Below are positions 2,363-45,182 of a stretch of 60,267 nt of DNA, piece after piece. A program made the position numbers and the translations under genes. The stretch is from Weissella hellenica (GTDB taxonomy: Bacteria > Bacillota > Bacilli > Lactobacillales > Lactobacillaceae). Within the stretch, counting starts at the first letter, position 1. Every line of letters starts with the position of its first letter. Location: NCBI RefSeq assembly GCF_005405545.1, contig NZ_BJEG01000014.1, positions 1 through 60,267 on the forward strand, written 5' to 3'. The notes below the pieces were generated by a model. That model did no database searches. It was not told where the DNA came from and saw nothing but the letters and a program-made list of their open reading frames with translations.

Positions 2363-2380
2363 ATATTCTTGTAAGTCACT

Positions 2381-2489
2381 CAGGGTAGGTTAAGATGCGT
2401 CAAGTGTTGTGGAAACGGAATGTGGGCCACAGACGAAGGTTTTTCCGCGATATCTTAATCACATTCACTGCAACAAGTGAAACCCTCCA
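2381..2489 (+). ncRNA. THF (tetrahydrofolate) riboswitch, class I
   Basis: The leader of folT follows the conserved THF-I layout: AGGGTAGG at the 5' end, then GCGTCAAGTG, GGAATGT inside a small CCACA/TGTGG hairpin, ACGAAG, CGCG, and a closing strand ACCCT. This matches the order of conserved blocks in the known folE/folT aptamers. P1 is formed by AGGGT (2382-2386) and ACCCT (2482-2486). The closing strand also contains CCTCC (2484-2488), which can pair with the GGAGG ribosome-binding site just downstream, so control is probably at translation initiation. Confidence 0.8.
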
Positions 2490-26759: not shown

Positions 26760-27689
26760 CTATTTATTATCTTGTGAACTACTACTATTGGCTGCTTTTG
26801 CTGTTGCGGCAGCTTGCGTATAAGTTGACAAAACATTTTGCAAGGTTGAATCCTTAATGTTAACATCCGCCTTACCTAATTCTTCTCCCACAATTGCTTG
26901 GACTTTATTAGTATCAGACATTGTTTGATCAACCAAAATCATCTTCATCTTTGGCTTAAGGGTCTTAAATGACTTCTTTGAAGCTTGAGAATTCTTCTTG
27001 ATAATAAAATATCCTTGTGATGATTGTGATTGTACTGGCGTCTTCGTGTACTCACCATTCTTAAGCTTAAAGGCAGCTGACTTAAAATCATCCTCTAAAT
27101 TAGCATCAGTTGAATCAAAGGCAGTCATCTTACCACCATTTTTCTTGGTATTAGTATCAATTGACTTGTCTTTTGCTAACTTAGCAAAATCGCCACCCTT
27201 ATTCAAATCATTAATGACCTTTTTAGCATCATCTTCTGACTCTGTTAAAATAACAGAAACATTTGTTTTAGGTTGGTAATCATTATAAGTTTTACGTAAT
27301 TGCTTTGTTGAATAGTTTTCATTGGCAATAACCGCTTGCTTTTCTAATGCTTGAATTTCTAATGATTGTCTGAAACTATCTTCATCCATACCATTTTGTG
27401 ACAATGTTTGTGAGAATTGCTCACCATATTGCTTTTTGGCATCCTTGAATTGGTTTTCAACAGACTTCTTTGAAACTTTATCACCATACTTATCATTCAA
27501 AACTTTTTGAATAATCATGTTGGCTAGTTCTTGTTGTCCTGCTGGAGACTTCTTCAGATTTTTGTAATACTCAGCTTGTGAAACGTTACCCGCATCAGTC
27601 GTTACGATTGATTTGGGACCGATTCCCCAGGCTGCTAGACCAACTGCTACAGCAACTGCTACTAGCACACCTAATACTTTTTTCCACAT
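26760..27689 (-). CDS. prsA: Extracellular foldase PrsA (parvulin-type peptidyl-prolyl isomerase)
   Basis: This 309-aa exported chaperone has an N-terminal hydrophobic segment at residues 4-23 (VLGVLVAVAVAVGLAAWG), an N-terminal chaperone domain, a parvulin domain around 135-225 (NVSVILTESEDDA through NGGKMTAF and QGYFIIKK), and a Ser/Ala-rich C-terminus. Classical PrsA is a lipoprotein with an LxAC lipobox. Here the cysteine position is occupied by AAW, so it is probably held by an uncleaved N-terminal anchor or is secreted. Lys/Gln richness is typical. It is downstream of the pyrR-carA-carB unit but has its own upstream gap of about 70 bp. Confidence 0.88.
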   Translation of the reverse strand: MWKKVLGVLVAVAVAVGLAAWGIGPKSIVTTDAGNVSQAEYYKNLKKSPAGQQELANMIIQKVLNDKYGDKVSKKSVENQFKDAKKQYGEQFSQTLSQNGMDEDSFRQSLEIQALEKQAVIANENYSTKQLRKTYNDYQPKTNVSVILTESEDDAKKVINDLNKGGDFAKLAKDKSIDTNTKKNGGKMTAFDSTDANLEDDFKSAAFKLKNGEYTKTPVQSQSSQGYFIIKKNSQASKKSFKTLKPKMKMILVDQTMSDTNKVQAIVGEELGKADVNIKDSTLQNVLSTYTQAAATAKAANSSSSQDNK

Positions 27690-27758: not shown

Positions 27759-30227
27759 TTAAATTAAATGGTACGTTGCACCAATCGCATAGCGCCCATT
27801 ATCTAACATCTGATCAATTTCCATATGTTCCTCAAAATCTGCATGCCAATAGGTCAATTGCGCTTTAGGAATACGCCATTGTAATGATTTTAATTGTGCC
27901 AAAAACTGTTGTTCAACATGGGTTTGACGATTCAACATATAACGAATTACCAAACGCATCCAGTCAATCCCTGTCACTTTATCCAAAAAAGCCACCATTG
28001 TAAATGGCATTGGTCGAACGACCATCAATGGTTCATCATTATGACTAGGTTGATGTTTAATCAACATTTGATATAAACCCGGTGTTTCCGAACTCATTTG
28101 TGGACGTGGTATTTTATCCCAAAGTGCTTCTGTCATCACAGATTGATCCAAAATAATACCATCATTACTTTGGCTACCCATGCCAATTAAGTAAATAGTT
28201 TGACCATCATAAAAGTAATTAACGACTGTTCGTGATGTATCATCTACAATACTACTTGGCAAATATTTTTCTTTTGCAATAACTTTTACATCAATACCAT
28301 TTTGTCGCAAACTATTAATTAATTTAATACGGTTACCTGGCACAAAAACTTGCATAGGCTGTTCAATTTCGATAACATTCATAACATCAGAAATCTCTAA
28401 TGGTTCATAATACTTCTTGTTTCCTAACTGTGGCATAAACATTAAGTCAGTTGGACTATTGTTCATTAACACCGTTTGAATACCTTGTGCTTGCAATTCT
28501 GCAGCTACCATTGCCATAACGTAAGAAGCGGCCGCACCATCCCCTAAACGAAAACCACCTGCCCCAATTACTAAGGCAGTATACTTTCCTAACCGTATAC
28601 TTTCATTTTCTGATTCAAAAGTTGAATAATACTGATTAGCAGCTTCTTCAAATTCACCTGCGGATGGCTCAAACGCTTTATAAGTTGGCAAAATACCATT
28701 ATCCCATCGATAACGACGAACTTCTTCATATTTTGCATGCCACAAACGCGCAATTAACCCGTCTGACAAACCATAATACTTTGCTAACTTAACCACATCC
28801 ATTTGCCAAGGCTTATTTTTTACTGTTTCTTCTAATTTGTTAATTTGTCTTAACTTATAAAAATAAAACGCATTAATTTTAGTCATTTCAGCCAATTCAT
28901 CAACTGTATAACCTCTCCTTAATGCCTCCAAGAGAACAAAAATGCGATTATCACGAGGATGAATAAGTTGTTCAATAATTCCATTATCTGTCAGAGCGTT
29001 CATCACGGTTGGTGAGAAGTTACGATTATTGAAATGAGCTGCTCGAATGGCTTTTTCCAACGCTTCTTCAACACTACGTCCCACCCCAATTGTCGTACCA
29101 ACTGATTTTTGCACTGTATTTAACCGGTGCTCTGTTTTAACACCATTAGATTCAAAATCACCAAATGAAAAGATTGGAAAGCGAATAACAATATGATCCA
29201 TTGTTGGTTCCAATAATGCTGTATGATTAGCCCCAATCACCGGTGTTTGAACTGCTTCTAACGTCTCGCCTAAAATCAATCGCGTGACCACTGGAATTAA
29301 TGGATACCCTGTCGCTGCAACTAATAAAGCCGCAGTTCGATCAAAATATGGTGTGACACGGGTAATAACATAATCATCAACTTTAGGATCAACTGCAAAT
29401 CTAACTTCTAATAACCCAATAACATCAAAACCACGGATAACTTTAAACGCTGCTGACCGTAATTTTTGATAGACCGGATCTGGCAAAGTTTGAATAGGCG
29501 TAATCGCAATTGAATCTGCAGAATGAATACCGACTGGATCCATGTCTTCGACGCCACCAATCAAGACAGTGGTATCTCTTTTATCACGGATTACTAGCAT
29601 CGATATTTCTTGATGGCCACGAATGCTTTTATCAATATTAACTTGATGCGTAATTGACCGGTTAAGCCCTGTTTCAACAGCTTCTTCTAAATCATCAATA
29701 TCAGTGACTTGCAACCGCAGTGTCTGTCCCATTGGCGCAATTGGTCGAATAACAACTGGCAACTCGAAGTCTCTAACGGCATCAAAAGCTTCGCTAACAT
29801 TACTAGCTAAACGTGATTGAACCGTTGGAATATTTAGCTGTTGCAATCGCTCATGTAAATATTTTGTATTTTGTGTGGCTTGCATCACTGGTAGTGACAA
29901 ACCTAAAACTTTAGGTGCACCGTTGCCCATTAACTTTAAAATATCAGCCCCTAGCCGCGTTGCTGTTGAACCACCCACTGACGTTACCATGGCTGTGATA
30001 TGTTCTTTGGCAATAACCGCCATCAGATTATCAATCGTTAATGCTTTTTCAATGACTTGAATATCGTGGCGACTAGTCGTAAACGCATACGGATTGTCAT
30101 CAACAATAACTACTTCATGACCATATTTTTTGATAACATCAACAACTTGAAACGTTGCAACATCACCTTCAGTTTCACGACCAAAATCATTAGCTGATCC
30201 ACCTATAATAAGCACTCGTTCTGTCAT
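27759..30227 (-). CDS. carB: Carbamoyl-phosphate synthase large-subunit-like protein, degenerate and shortened
   Basis: This 822-aa protein is homologous to CarB (normally about 1060 aa). Domain order is kept: first pre-ATP domain 1-120, first ATP-grasp 121-400, helical oligomerisation domain 405-545, second pre-ATP domain 548-650. The remnant of the second ATP-grasp (652-770) lacks its nucleotide-binding lobe, and the allosteric MGS domain is absent. In the first ATP-grasp the glycine-rich loop RPSFTMGGSGGG is replaced by RPIAPMGQT (161-169), the Mg ligand region NVQFAV reads EVRFAV (274-279), and EMNPRVSRS reads TRVTPYFDR. Neither half should bind ATP-Mg normally. The frame is long, uninterrupted, and begins in an ATGA overlap with carA. 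The carA C-terminal glycine codons form its ribosome-binding site. Confidence 0.85.
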   Translation of the reverse strand: MTERVLIIGGSANDFGRETEGDVATFQVVDVIKKYGHEVVIVDDNPYAFTTSRHDIQVIEKALTIDNLMAVIAKEHITAMVTSVGGSTATRLGADILKLMGNGAPKVLGLSLPVMQATQNTKYLHERLQQLNIPTVQSRLASNVSEAFDAVRDFELPVVIRPIAPMGQTLRLQVTDIDDLEEAVETGLNRSITHQVNIDKSIRGHQEISMLVIRDKRDTTVLIGGVEDMDPVGIHSADSIAITPIQTLPDPVYQKLRSAAFKVIRGFDVIGLLEVRFAVDPKVDDYVITRVTPYFDRTAALLVAATGYPLIPVVTRLILGETLEAVQTPVIGANHTALLEPTMDHIVIRFPIFSFGDFESNGVKTEHRLNTVQKSVGTTIGVGRSVEEALEKAIRAAHFNNRNFSPTVMNALTDNGIIEQLIHPRDNRIFVLLEALRRGYTVDELAEMTKINAFYFYKLRQINKLEETVKNKPWQMDVVKLAKYYGLSDGLIARLWHAKYEEVRRYRWDNGILPTYKAFEPSAGEFEEAANQYYSTFESENESIRLGKYTALVIGAGGFRLGDGAAASYVMAMVAAELQAQGIQTVLMNNSPTDLMFMPQLGNKKYYEPLEISDVMNVIEIEQPMQVFVPGNRIKLINSLRQNGIDVKVIAKEKYLPSSIVDDTSRTVVNYFYDGQTIYLIGMGSQSNDGIILDQSVMTEALWDKIPRPQMSSETPGLYQMLIKHQPSHNDEPLMVVRPMPFTMVAFLDKVTGIDWMRLVIRYMLNRQTHVEQQFLAQLKSLQWRIPKAQLTYWHADFEEHMEIDQMLDNGRYAIGATYHLI

Positions 30228-31309
30228 ATGCCACCTCCTCCACGTCGAGCCATCACCATTTCCATAAACTCAGCAAATGCCTGTGTTTCTTCTAATGGGC
30301 CTGGGGCAGCATCTGGGAAGAATTGCACACTGAAAGCTGGATAATCGCGATGTCGTAACCCTTGAATTTGATTATCCGTAATATCAATATGTGTAACAAA
30401 CAGGGGCGTATCTTTAATAGAAGTATGATCAACATAATACGCTTGCCCCTGCGTTGCAAAGATAATATCACTTGTAATTTGTTCCCGAATCGGGTGATTC
30501 ATCCCATGATGTGCTGATGCTAGTTCAGCAACTTTGGCCCCATTAGCAATAGCAAATAATTCATGACCCAATCCAATTCCAAATAAAGGAATTCGCTGCT
30601 CAAACTCACGGATAATCTCAAGAGCAGTTTCTGGTACTTGATTTGGATCACCTGGTCCAGATGAAATCACAATGCCATCTGGATCAAGATTAGCAACTTC
30701 ATCAATTGTTGCCAAATAAGGCAAAACAGTGACATTTGCATCAAAATCACTTAACATTCTTAAAATTCCGCTTTTCAGCCCAAAATCAACCACAACAACA
30801 TTGGCGCCTCGCCCTGGATTAGCGTAAGCCTTTGGTGTTGAAAGTTGCGCCACTTGTTGATTTGTTAACACCATTGCTCGCAATTGGTCAAAAGCATGAT
30901 CATCAGGTTGATCAACAATTGATGCCTTTTGTATACCAGTTTCACGTAAATGACGTGTTAAAGCGCGGGTATCAATTTGCGAAATACCAGGTACATTATG
31001 CCGTTTCAAATAATCATTTAAACTTAGTGTTCGTAAACGATTAGTTGATATTTCGGCTATTTCACGAACTACAACCCCCTTTACAGAAGGTACAATTGAC
31101 TCATCCGCATAGTGATTAATCCCTGCAGCACCAATAGTTGGTGTTGTAAACATTATAATTTGATTGTAATAAATTGGATTCGTGATAATTTCTTGATACC
31201 CGGTCATAGCTGTATTAAATACTAATTCCCCAAAAGTCGTTGCAGGCGCCCCGAAAGCTTCACCTGCATACACAGTACCATCTTGTAAAATTAAATAACG
31301 TGTTGTCAT
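30224..31309 (-). CDS. carA: Carbamoyl-phosphate synthase small-subunit-like protein lacking the glutaminase triad
   Basis: This 361-aa protein aligns along its length with CarA (LQDGTVYAGEAFGA, SQIDTRALTRHLRETG, SSGPGDPNQVPE, HHGMNHPI). The nucleophile elbow GICLGHQ reads GIGLGHE, so the catalytic Cys is Gly246. In the QYHPEASPGP motif the catalytic His and Glu are Phe331 and Asp333. All three triad residues are therefore changed; the codons read GGA, TTC and GAT, and the Cys and His changes are not single-base errors. It cannot act as a Cys-dependent glutaminase. It lies between pyrR and the degenerate carB, with a hairpin between its ribosome-binding site and start codon. No alternative start exists because a TGA lies in frame 7 codons upstream. 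Confidence 0.88.
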   Translation of the reverse strand: MTTRYLILQDGTVYAGEAFGAPATTFGELVFNTAMTGYQEIITNPIYYNQIIMFTTPTIGAAGINHYADESIVPSVKGVVVREIAEISTNRLRTLSLNDYLKRHNVPGISQIDTRALTRHLRETGIQKASIVDQPDDHAFDQLRAMVLTNQQVAQLSTPKAYANPGRGANVVVVDFGLKSGILRMLSDFDANVTVLPYLATIDEVANLDPDGIVISSGPGDPNQVPETALEIIREFEQRIPLFGIGLGHELFAIANGAKVAELASAHHGMNHPIREQITSDIIFATQGQAYYVDHTSIKDTPLFVTHIDITDNQIQGLRHRDYPAFSVQFFPDAAPGPLEETQAFAEFMEMVMARRGGGGI

Positions 31310-31370: not shown

Positions 31371-31886
<516 letters not shown>

Positions 31887-31904: not shown

Positions 31905-32030
31905 TATTCACACCTAATAAAAAAGAGACACTACTCTCCTAATCTAAAAGGGTAACGTCTCGTTAGCTTTATTTATCACATTACCTTCTAGCAATCTCGC
32001 TGAACTACCTTAAGAAAGTTTCAATTTTTG
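31905..32030 (-). promoter_or_regulatory. PyrR-type transcription attenuator in the pyrR leader
   Basis: The leader RNA contains AGTTCAGCGAGATT and AGAAGG (31984-32006), matching the PyrR binding loop consensus, followed by an intrinsic terminator with arms GAGAC and GTCTC plus TTTTTT (about 31915-31964). This is the standard layout for UMP/PyrR-dependent termination and would control pyrR and the two car-like genes. Confidence 0.75.
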
Positions 32031-32079: not shown

Positions 32080-32985
32080 TTATTCTGCATACGGTTGTAG
32101 TTGGCTTAACATGTATTCAAAATCATCCGGTAATGGTGCTTCAAATTGCAATGCTTCTTGTGTCGTTGGTTGTGTCAAACCAAGGGTGGCTGCATGCAAA
32201 TATTGACCATTTCCCGCAAGTGTTTTTTTAGGGCCATATAAAGGATCACCTGCAACAGGATGACCAATATAATCCATATGCACGCGAATTTGATGGGTCC
32301 GTCCCGTTTCTAGGGTCACTTTCAACAAGGTATACCCAACAAAACGTTTAACCACTTCAAAATGAGTTACGGCATCACGGCCGCCAGACACAACTGCTTG
32401 TTTTTTACGATCGGCTTTTGACCGACCTAAAGGTGCAGTAATTGTCCCTCTATTTTCCGTAAATTCACCATGTACCAGTGCATAATATTGACGTAAGTTT
32501 TTCTTAGCTTTTAAATCGGCTGACAATGCTTCATGCGCTTTATCGTTTTTAGCAACCATCAAAAGACCAGATGTGTCTTTATCAATACGATGCACAATTC
32601 CTGGACGGATAACCCCATTAATAGTTGAAAGATGTGTATGGTACATTAAAGCATTTACTAACGTACCATCTGGATGACCTGCAGCTGGATGAACAACCAT
32701 CCCCTGTGGCTTATTGATTACTAATAAATCATCGTCTTCATAGACAATATCTAAAGGAATATTTTCTGGCTTAACATCTAATACAACTGGTTCTGGAACA
32801 GTAAATGTAATAACATCACCTTCATGAACCTTGTACTTTGCCTTCTTTTCATCCCCATTAACTTTTAGCACACCATCATCAATCCATTTTGAAATTTGCG
32901 TACGTGTATAGTCAGCAAAGGTATCTGCTACTACTTTATCCAGACGACCAGTCTGATCTGCAATCGTCAATGTTTCCTCAGTCAT
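32080..32985 (-). CDS. RluA/RluD-family 23S rRNA pseudouridine synthase
   Basis: This 301-aa enzyme has an N-terminal S4 RNA-binding domain (about 12-70) and a catalytic domain with the RluA-family motif HRIDKDTSGLL (132-142, catalytic Asp135). It also carries VINKPQGMVVHP, LVHGEF and the HQIRVHMDYIGHPVAGDPLYG motif. It corresponds to B. subtilis YlyB/RluD. The start directly abuts the stop of the EbsA-like gene. Confidence 0.93.
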   Translation of the reverse strand: MTEETLTIADQTGRLDKVVADTFADYTRTQISKWIDDGVLKVNGDEKKAKYKVHEGDVITFTVPEPVVLDVKPENIPLDIVYEDDDLLVINKPQGMVVHPAAGHPDGTLVNALMYHTHLSTINGVIRPGIVHRIDKDTSGLLMVAKNDKAHEALSADLKAKKNLRQYYALVHGEFTENRGTITAPLGRSKADRKKQAVVSGGRDAVTHFEVVKRFVGYTLLKVTLETGRTHQIRVHMDYIGHPVAGDPLYGPKKTLAGNGQYLHAATLGLTQPTTQEALQFEAPLPDDFEYMLSQLQPYAE

Positions 32986-45016: not shown

Positions 45017-45044
45017 TAAATACAATTACTCATATTGGTATTTT

Positions 45045-45127
45045 CACAATTCCTACGCTTAAATAACTAAAACAGGTACGAAGGGTCTAGAGTAATACTC
45101 TTTCTCAGCCATAATCGGCTCCCCTTT
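45045..45127 (-). ncRNA. TPP riboswitch
   Basis: The minus strand carries the canonical thi-box: GGGGAGCC, GGCTGAGA, ACCCTTCGTACCTG and AAGCGTAGGAA in the right order and spacing, with an intervening variable P3 hairpin (AAGAGTATTACTCT). It lies upstream of thiW-thiM-thiE. Confidence 0.95.
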
Positions 45128-45182
45128 GTGATTAATATTCTATTATATTACTATCATAACACAACAATCATCAAAATACTGG

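Follow-up and report, generated by a model that had tools for sequence, protein, structure and literature searches.

What is left for a carbamoyl-phosphate synthase (CPS) to do once its catalytic residues are gone? The question is raised by two genes beside pyrR on a contig of Weissella hellenica (NZ_BJEG01000014.1, positions 1 to 60,267, assembly GCF_005405545.1), the whole 60,267 nucleotides of which are called the window here. The gene of the large subunit, carB2 (27759..30227, minus strand, 822 residues), was assigned from its open reading frame (ORF), its TIGR01369 score and the residue counts given below, and that of the small pseudo-glutaminase subunit, carA2 (30224..31309, minus strand, 361 residues), from profile and residue comparison. 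Both genes overlap in an ATGA, which suggests coupled translation. As described in the following, comparison of the sequences makes it very probable that CarA2-CarB2 is not a CPS. Everything beyond the loss of this reaction is what we infer, and as a whole a regulatory or sensing role is our tentative preference, to which we would give somewhat less than an even chance.

Catalytic residues of CarB2 and CarA2

Residue numbers are those of E. coli CarA and CarB (CarB reference 1bxr_A), and the roles of the residues follow in part passages of PMC6245113 and PMC4655335. The first-pass annotation had described a CarB-like protein about 240 residues short and free of stops, in agreement with the stop-free ORF of 822 residues, against 1058 in the ordinary CarB that the host has besides (locus L122), a difference of 236. 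CarB2 aligns with residues 4-647 of E. coli CarB and stays below the curated cut-off of two CPS large-subunit models, with 448 bits for TIGR01369 (cut-off 1027) and 433 bits for NF003671 (cut-off 599). For a comparison by position, 57 CarB2 sequences were set against 24 ordinary CarB sequences (two from other phyla), with positions at least 95% invariant in ordinary CarB as reference and a position counted as lost when kept in at most 20% of the CarB2 sequences. This led to 189 lost invariant positions, while 49 were kept in at least 95% of the 57 sequences.

In the remnant of ATP-grasp domain 1 (residues 125-325; 29253..29855, minus strand; PF02786, 112 bits) the ATP and Mg residues are mostly gone. 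Each of the glycine-rich loop glycines G176, G178, G179 and G180 is kept in at most 20% of the 57 sequences, with Arg for G179 in 55, and E299 is Lys or Arg in all 57. In counts over 53 sequences, R129 is gone in 52, N301 in 50 and R303 in 53. The earlier statement that this domain lacks its glycine-rich loop and both metal-ligand motifs is therefore correct for the loop, E299 and N301, but too strong for Q285, which is kept in 30/53 sequences (Arg in the window protein). In one region, E215, E235, D238, G241, H243, D246 and S247 are kept in 51 to 53 of 53. Position 169 is Arg or Lys in 53/53, and the E208 site is occupied by Lys or Arg in 31/53 and by Gln in 22/53, Gln being also found in the ordinary CarB of the host. 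When mapped by an offset of 418, most of the kept residues of the domain are covered by the K-loop of human CPS1, as far as passages of PMC4655335 describe it. As this one region is kept in 51 to 53 of 53 sequences, the first ATP-grasp site looks remodelled rather than simply dismantled. E215, N236 and H243 were also considered as a kept bicarbonate site, a candidate that was dropped because the CPS1 passages place K+ in that loop.

The C-terminal losses were confirmed as first described. In ATP-grasp 2, said to be without its nucleotide-binding lobe, only 4/85 invariant positions persist in 80% or more of the 57 sequences, and in the allosteric domain, said to be absent, 0/14. The oligomerisation domain is retained (residues 419-496; 28740..28973, minus strand; PF02787, 75.7 bits).

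CarA2 scores above the cut-off of TIGR01368 for the small subunit of glutamine-hydrolysing CPS (364.6 bits, cut-off 307.35) and of NF009475 (421.2 bits, cut-off 221). Its active site is rebuilt: Cys269 is Gly in 57/57 sequences, and His353 is lost in 57/57, where Phe, Ser, Leu or Asn is found instead. Further changes are N240T/S (57/57), Q273E (55/57) and S47I (53/57). The small subunit had been called triad-less, which holds for Cys269 and His353 but not for the third position, since ordinary CarA of this group likewise has Asp at 355 (21/22 sequences), which is hence no loss. With catalytic residues gone in both CarA2 and CarB2, the description as a complete pseudo-CPS pair stands. An unusual CPS that is still active would agree with the small subunit passing the NCBIfam cut-off for glutamine-hydrolysing enzymes, but given the loss of Cys269 and His353 in 57/57, the exchange of Glu299 for Lys or Arg in 57/57 and the deleted second ATP lobe we regard it as extremely improbable.

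The relation to working enzymes remains visible. E. coli CPS (1bxr) and the pyrimidine CPS of the host show the same order of pre-ATP-grasp 1, ATP-grasp 1, oligomerisation domain and pre-ATP-grasp 2, are likewise encoded by two adjacent genes, and have a CarA with which CarA2 can be aligned over nearly the whole length. They differ from the pair in that CarA2 is without the catalytic Cys and His, and CarB2 without the metal ligands (Q285 being partly kept), the glycine-rich loop, the second nucleotide lobe and the allosteric domain. According to the passages of PMC4655335, human CPS1 likewise keeps an ancestral glutaminase domain (S2) without the catalytic Cys; unlike CarB2, whose sites are lost, it retains both phosphorylation sites and makes carbamoyl phosphate.

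Conservation, distribution and origin of the pair

The ratio of non-synonymous to synonymous substitution rates (dN/dS) was calculated from eight Weissella loci, with only pairs of a dS of 0.1-1.5 (6 to 15 pairs per gene), and gave means of 0.030 for carB2 and 0.033 for carA2, compared to 0.049 for pyrR, 0.041 for purB and 0.039 for rluD. Sequencing errors or a pseudogene could be ruled out by this low dN/dS together with open frames of 818-901 residues in 53/53 loci, which had been chosen from good matches. A decaying relic without function would be in line with the lost catalytic residues, the fast divergence of CarB2 and some interrupted copies: carB2 of the L. fermentum record CP033372.1 (L177) is interrupted and unannotated, with 742 residues as longest open stretch, and one in-frame stop each was found in two draft genomes of 87% and 89% completeness (G420:C40:1639-3645 and G595:C675:31232-33511). 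Already contradicted by a dN/dS of about 0.03, and facing a pair that occurs in 229/397 genomes with constant gene order and similar length, the relic is hardly credible.

Both subunits are not constrained alike. Within the same seven genera CarA2 has a mean pairwise identity of 60.5% and ordinary CarA one of 57.7%, compared to 34.4% for CarB2 and 66.2% for ordinary CarB. Because CarA2 is as conserved as ordinary CarA and CarB2 far less than ordinary CarB, the strongest constraint seems to act on CarA2, whose pocket is rebuilt. That this pocket (Gly for Cys269, Glu for Gln273), or the cationic site of CarB2, might have acquired a new catalytic activity is conceivable, as the changes are fixed instead of scattered and CarA2 is conserved to the same degree as ordinary CarA. 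We nevertheless consider it unlikely: inspection by eye revealed no new combination of nucleophile, acid and base, Glu299 is missing from all sequences and Asn301 from nearly all, and CarB2 diverges fast, unlike ordinary CarB.

The 229 carriers among 397 sampled Lactobacillaceae genomes (21/40 genera; hand count) were identified with a profile of the CarB2 C-terminus, and the pseudo-CPS pair is hence wider than this genome. The split at E = 1e-15 is narrow, with 1.2e-15 for the weakest counted and 6.1e-14 for the strongest uncounted genome. Genus g10, which is weak in this profile, was also judged by full-length scores, so that G510 (1.3e-11) was counted and G428 was not. No short CarB2 form from outside the Lactobacillaceae was present among the matches listed for 295 Lactobacillales genomes, and in 250 Bacilli genomes the C-terminal profile matched only its own genome at E <= 1e-15. 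In a CarA tree of 76 sequences calculated by a quick method, from which four near-identical Weissella sequences had been left out, the 53 CarA2 sequences form a single clade with a support of 100 in the Shimodaira-Hasegawa-like approximate likelihood-ratio test (SH-aLRT). CarB sequences of other groups were L049, L050 and L052, the first two of which served as outgroup rows; an odd match from W. confusa (L051) was not used.

Concerning the origin of the pair, a gene for an rluD-like pseudouridine synthase, named by eye (32080..32985, minus strand), is the upstream neighbour in 52/53 loci. In six of nine relatives without CarB2 the order is rluD-pyrR-pyrP-pyrB followed by pyrC-carA-carB (L168+L161, L170+L163, L169, L173, L174 and L176), the last gene or two of rluD-pyrR-pyrP-pyrB being read from the neighbouring locus in some of them; in the other three (L171, L172 and L175) rluD was not seen beside pyrR. 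Because these six show rluD-pyrR and then pyr genes, the site of carA2-carB2 appears to be the ancestral pyr locus, with pyrP, pyrB and pyrC presumably lost, and the pair probably arose from carA-carB at that place. The ordinary carA-carB of the host is found elsewhere in the genome in an apparent pyrB-pyrC-carA-carB-pyrD-pyrF-pyrE operon without pyrR (names by eye, pyrB also by search).

A mobile origin was not supported. No relative was found in viral contigs, none of the 63 plasmid records that matched did so over at least 80% of the protein, and comparisons of carB2 from genus g11 with plasmids and of the g11 locus with phages gave no match. One of the 63, the 760-kb L. fermentum record, is labelled plasmid, has the pair beside rluD and looks like a chromosome. 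In the same record (CP033372.1, 8275-8910) a gene of the carbonic anhydrase family follows just after carB2 on the opposite strand; this link was taken as chance, as there was no match at any other locus searched.

Linkage to PyrR and independence from pyrimidine synthesis

The pyrR gene of the window (31371..31883, minus strand; NF003548, 263.9 bits, cut-off 218) encodes the only full PyrR match of the host genome, besides one weak and partial match, and the 10-residue stretch checked for PyrR membership is present in its protein, which was accordingly assigned to PyrR. In 53/57 loci, 49 of a first set of 53 and all of four further ones, pyrR adjoins carA2-carB2, and PyrR was found in 78/78 other CarB2 genomes tested. 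The first-pass annotation had proposed a search for a family of CarB proteins of about 820 residues restricted to neighbours of pyrR. Such a family indeed exists, but the restriction does not hold, as four of the 57 loci and the L. fermentum record are without pyrR at the pair.

Inactive dihydroorotase-like subunits are known to scaffold aspartate transcarbamoylase, and CarA2-CarB2 might similarly hold PyrR or another protein without sensing any ligand. Such a structural scaffold would suit the adjacent pyrR in 53/57 loci, the coupled translation suggested by the gene overlap and the kept oligomerisation domain; fixed changes deep in the CarA pocket are not obviously needed for it, and the pair also occurs at loci without pyrR, so that a pure scaffold appears improbable to us.

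A leader of the PyrR-binding family RF00515 was detected before pyrR-carA2-carB2 (31919..32021, minus strand) with a weak score of 32.7 bits. At the same place, 5/5 other Weissella loci scanned loosely gave 31.6-40.4 bits, all under the cut-off, and in genus g10 the pyrR of G320 is directly preceded by a match of 40.9 bits. In alignments of 6 and 10 leaders, AGTTCAGCGAGATT (31993..32006, minus strand) resembles what we take to be the consensus of the PyrR-binding loop. It is followed by a terminator-like stem with a T tail (31918..31959, minus strand), seven of whose 12 predicted pairs have both partners changed in one or more of 10 sequences, the row of L044 being incomplete. Elsewhere in the host genome such leaders precede pyrB (58.6 bits) and a uracil permease gene (48 bits, under the cut-off). 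At E <= 0.001 RF00515 was matched somewhere in 46/50 carriers, in 27 of them over the cut-off.

If the pair served pyrimidine synthesis only, it should not persist without the pathway. A pyrB match is missing in 41/229 carriers, 21 of which belong to genus g15, and two more (G056 and G564; hand count) have a weak one only; PyrR is present in 40/40 of the pyrB-less carriers tested (G294 being left out) and in both with weak pyrB. As the pair is kept in these 41 genomes, its role should go beyond pathway flux alone. This bears on a further explanation, in which the pair modulates the ordinary CPS by forming mixed CarA/CarB complexes, as shared ancestry and a largely identical domain order might allow. 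In genus g15, 22/24 genomes (21 without pyrB, one with weak pyrB) match the C-terminal profile once and the two with pyrB twice, although a single match is no proof of a missing ordinary CarB, since some pyrB genomes also show one. G271 and G294 of this genus are without an ordinary CarB at E <= 1e-100 among the matches listed. Ordinary CarB thus seems to be absent from those g15 genomes while the pair persists, which makes its modulation very unlikely as the function.

From nine pyrB-less carriers, 14 stretches after PyrR leaders were inspected, taking the nearest ORF of at least 200 residues or BLAST match; some of these begin only several hundred bases after the leader, and that of L128 more than a kilobase after it. 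Seven of the 14 are uracil permease homologues and one is an upp homologue. Permeases for cytosine, purines or uracil were assigned by Pfam in L128 and L136 and by close likeness by eye in L130 and L134, and the others are one phosphonate-binding protein and one transporter of the major facilitator superfamily. The former, a phosphonate-type ATP-binding cassette (ABC) binding protein in a pyrB-less genome (L133, 2132-3121), follows a leader of 49.8 bits, under the cut-off, and is a candidate for the PyrR regulon, although an unusual one.

Some features surround the locus. A PrsA-like gene, named by eye (26760..27689, minus strand), lies 70 bases downstream of carB2, with which it may share a transcript, and purB, also named by eye, lies beyond it; among the loci compared the PrsA-like gene was seen behind carB2 in the Weissella group only. 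The nearest named match to the window CarB2 is from a W. sagaensis record (98% identity over the whole protein). Tetrahydrofolate (2379-2472, plus strand) and thiamine pyrophosphate (45033-45135, minus strand) riboswitches in the window score above the Rfam gathering threshold.

A possible sensor beside PyrR

In the role that we prefer, a non-catalytic CPS would have become part of the PyrR regulon, in which it would regulate and probably bind a ligand. CarA2 and CarB2 would form a CPS-like heterodimer, a small molecule would be held without turnover in the rebuilt CarA2 pocket or in the kept K-loop region of CarB2, and the bound state would act on PyrR or on pyrimidine uptake or synthesis. 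Candidate ligands are inorganic carbon, glutamine or a related amino acid, or a nucleotide. The kept K-loop region with basic residues in place of a former metal ligand suggests an anion- or potassium-linked site, and Gly and Glu in the CarA2 pocket suggest an altered amino-acid site.

Several findings weigh against this role. S47 and N311 of CarA, which we take to be glutamine contacts, are both changed in CarA2. The 32.7 bits of the window leader are below the RF00515 gathering score of 54 bits, no RF00515 match was found before the operon in 12 loci of other genera, which were scanned at that score only, and 4/50 carriers have no PyrR leader anywhere at E <= 0.001. The four loci without pyrR belong to genera g3 and g9, whose genomes encode PyrR elsewhere, and the L. 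fermentum record has no annotated pyrR at its carA2-carB2 locus. PyrR is also present in 13 of 19 tested genomes (of 20) that have neither CarB2 nor pyrB, three of these matches (genus g79) being weak with 42-45% identity, and in 12/14 of those at least 90% complete. As PyrR is thus kept without CarB2 and pyrB as well, it does not depend on the pair, and the idea that PyrR is retained because of CarB2 is unsupported by these control genomes. Finally, bicarbonate is described in passages on human CPS1 as close to T544 and R721, which correspond to A126 and R303 by the offset mapping; both of these bicarbonate- or phosphate-near residues are lost in CarB2.

Dead paralogues kept as regulatory or assembly partners are found in HisZ-HisG and in pseudo-dihydroorotase with aspartate transcarbamoylase. 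The pair described here differs from them in that all of an enzyme with two subunits and several sites is inactive, and in its proposed partner, an attenuation protein that binds RNA. No description of an entirely inactive CPS of two subunits that is maintained by selection was found among the matches listed, as judged from titles and abstract beginnings of open-licence literature.

Genus g11 may connect the locus to a reported phenotype. Two PyrR genes are present in 5/5 of its genomes tested, and in G507 one heads a pyrR-B-C-A-B-D-F-E operon, while the other adjoins carA2-carB2; the two proteins are 65.5% identical in G507 and 64.0% in G231, and those of L. plantarum reportedly 62%. Two PyrR genes were also seen in G369 and G628, the g15 genomes with pyrB. 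PyrR2 of L. plantarum has been reported to respond to inorganic carbon, in passages of PMC3582564 and PMC7911632 that are silent on a neighbouring dead CPS. From the two genes, one at the pyr operon and one beside carA2-carB2, we infer that g11 corresponds to Lactiplantibacillus, with PyrR2 as the PyrR linked to the pair. In the most specific form of the sensing role, a whole dead CPS would serve as metabolite sensor that detects a substrate of the reaction it has lost, either bicarbonate or, in the rebuilt pocket, an amino acid, and signals to PyrR, and in Lactiplantibacillus it would be the missing piece of the PyrR2 carbon response; we consider this form rather unlikely.

For annotation, the small subunit is entered as CPS small subunit in the L. 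fermentum record, and in the 41 pyrB-less carriers a CPS label would credit the genome with an initial reaction of pyrimidine synthesis that it does not have. If the linked PyrR of g11 is PyrR2, its response to carbon naturally directs attention to the dead CPS next to it, and if the pair works with PyrR, it would be a concrete candidate for the inorganic-carbon response of PyrR2 in L. plantarum.

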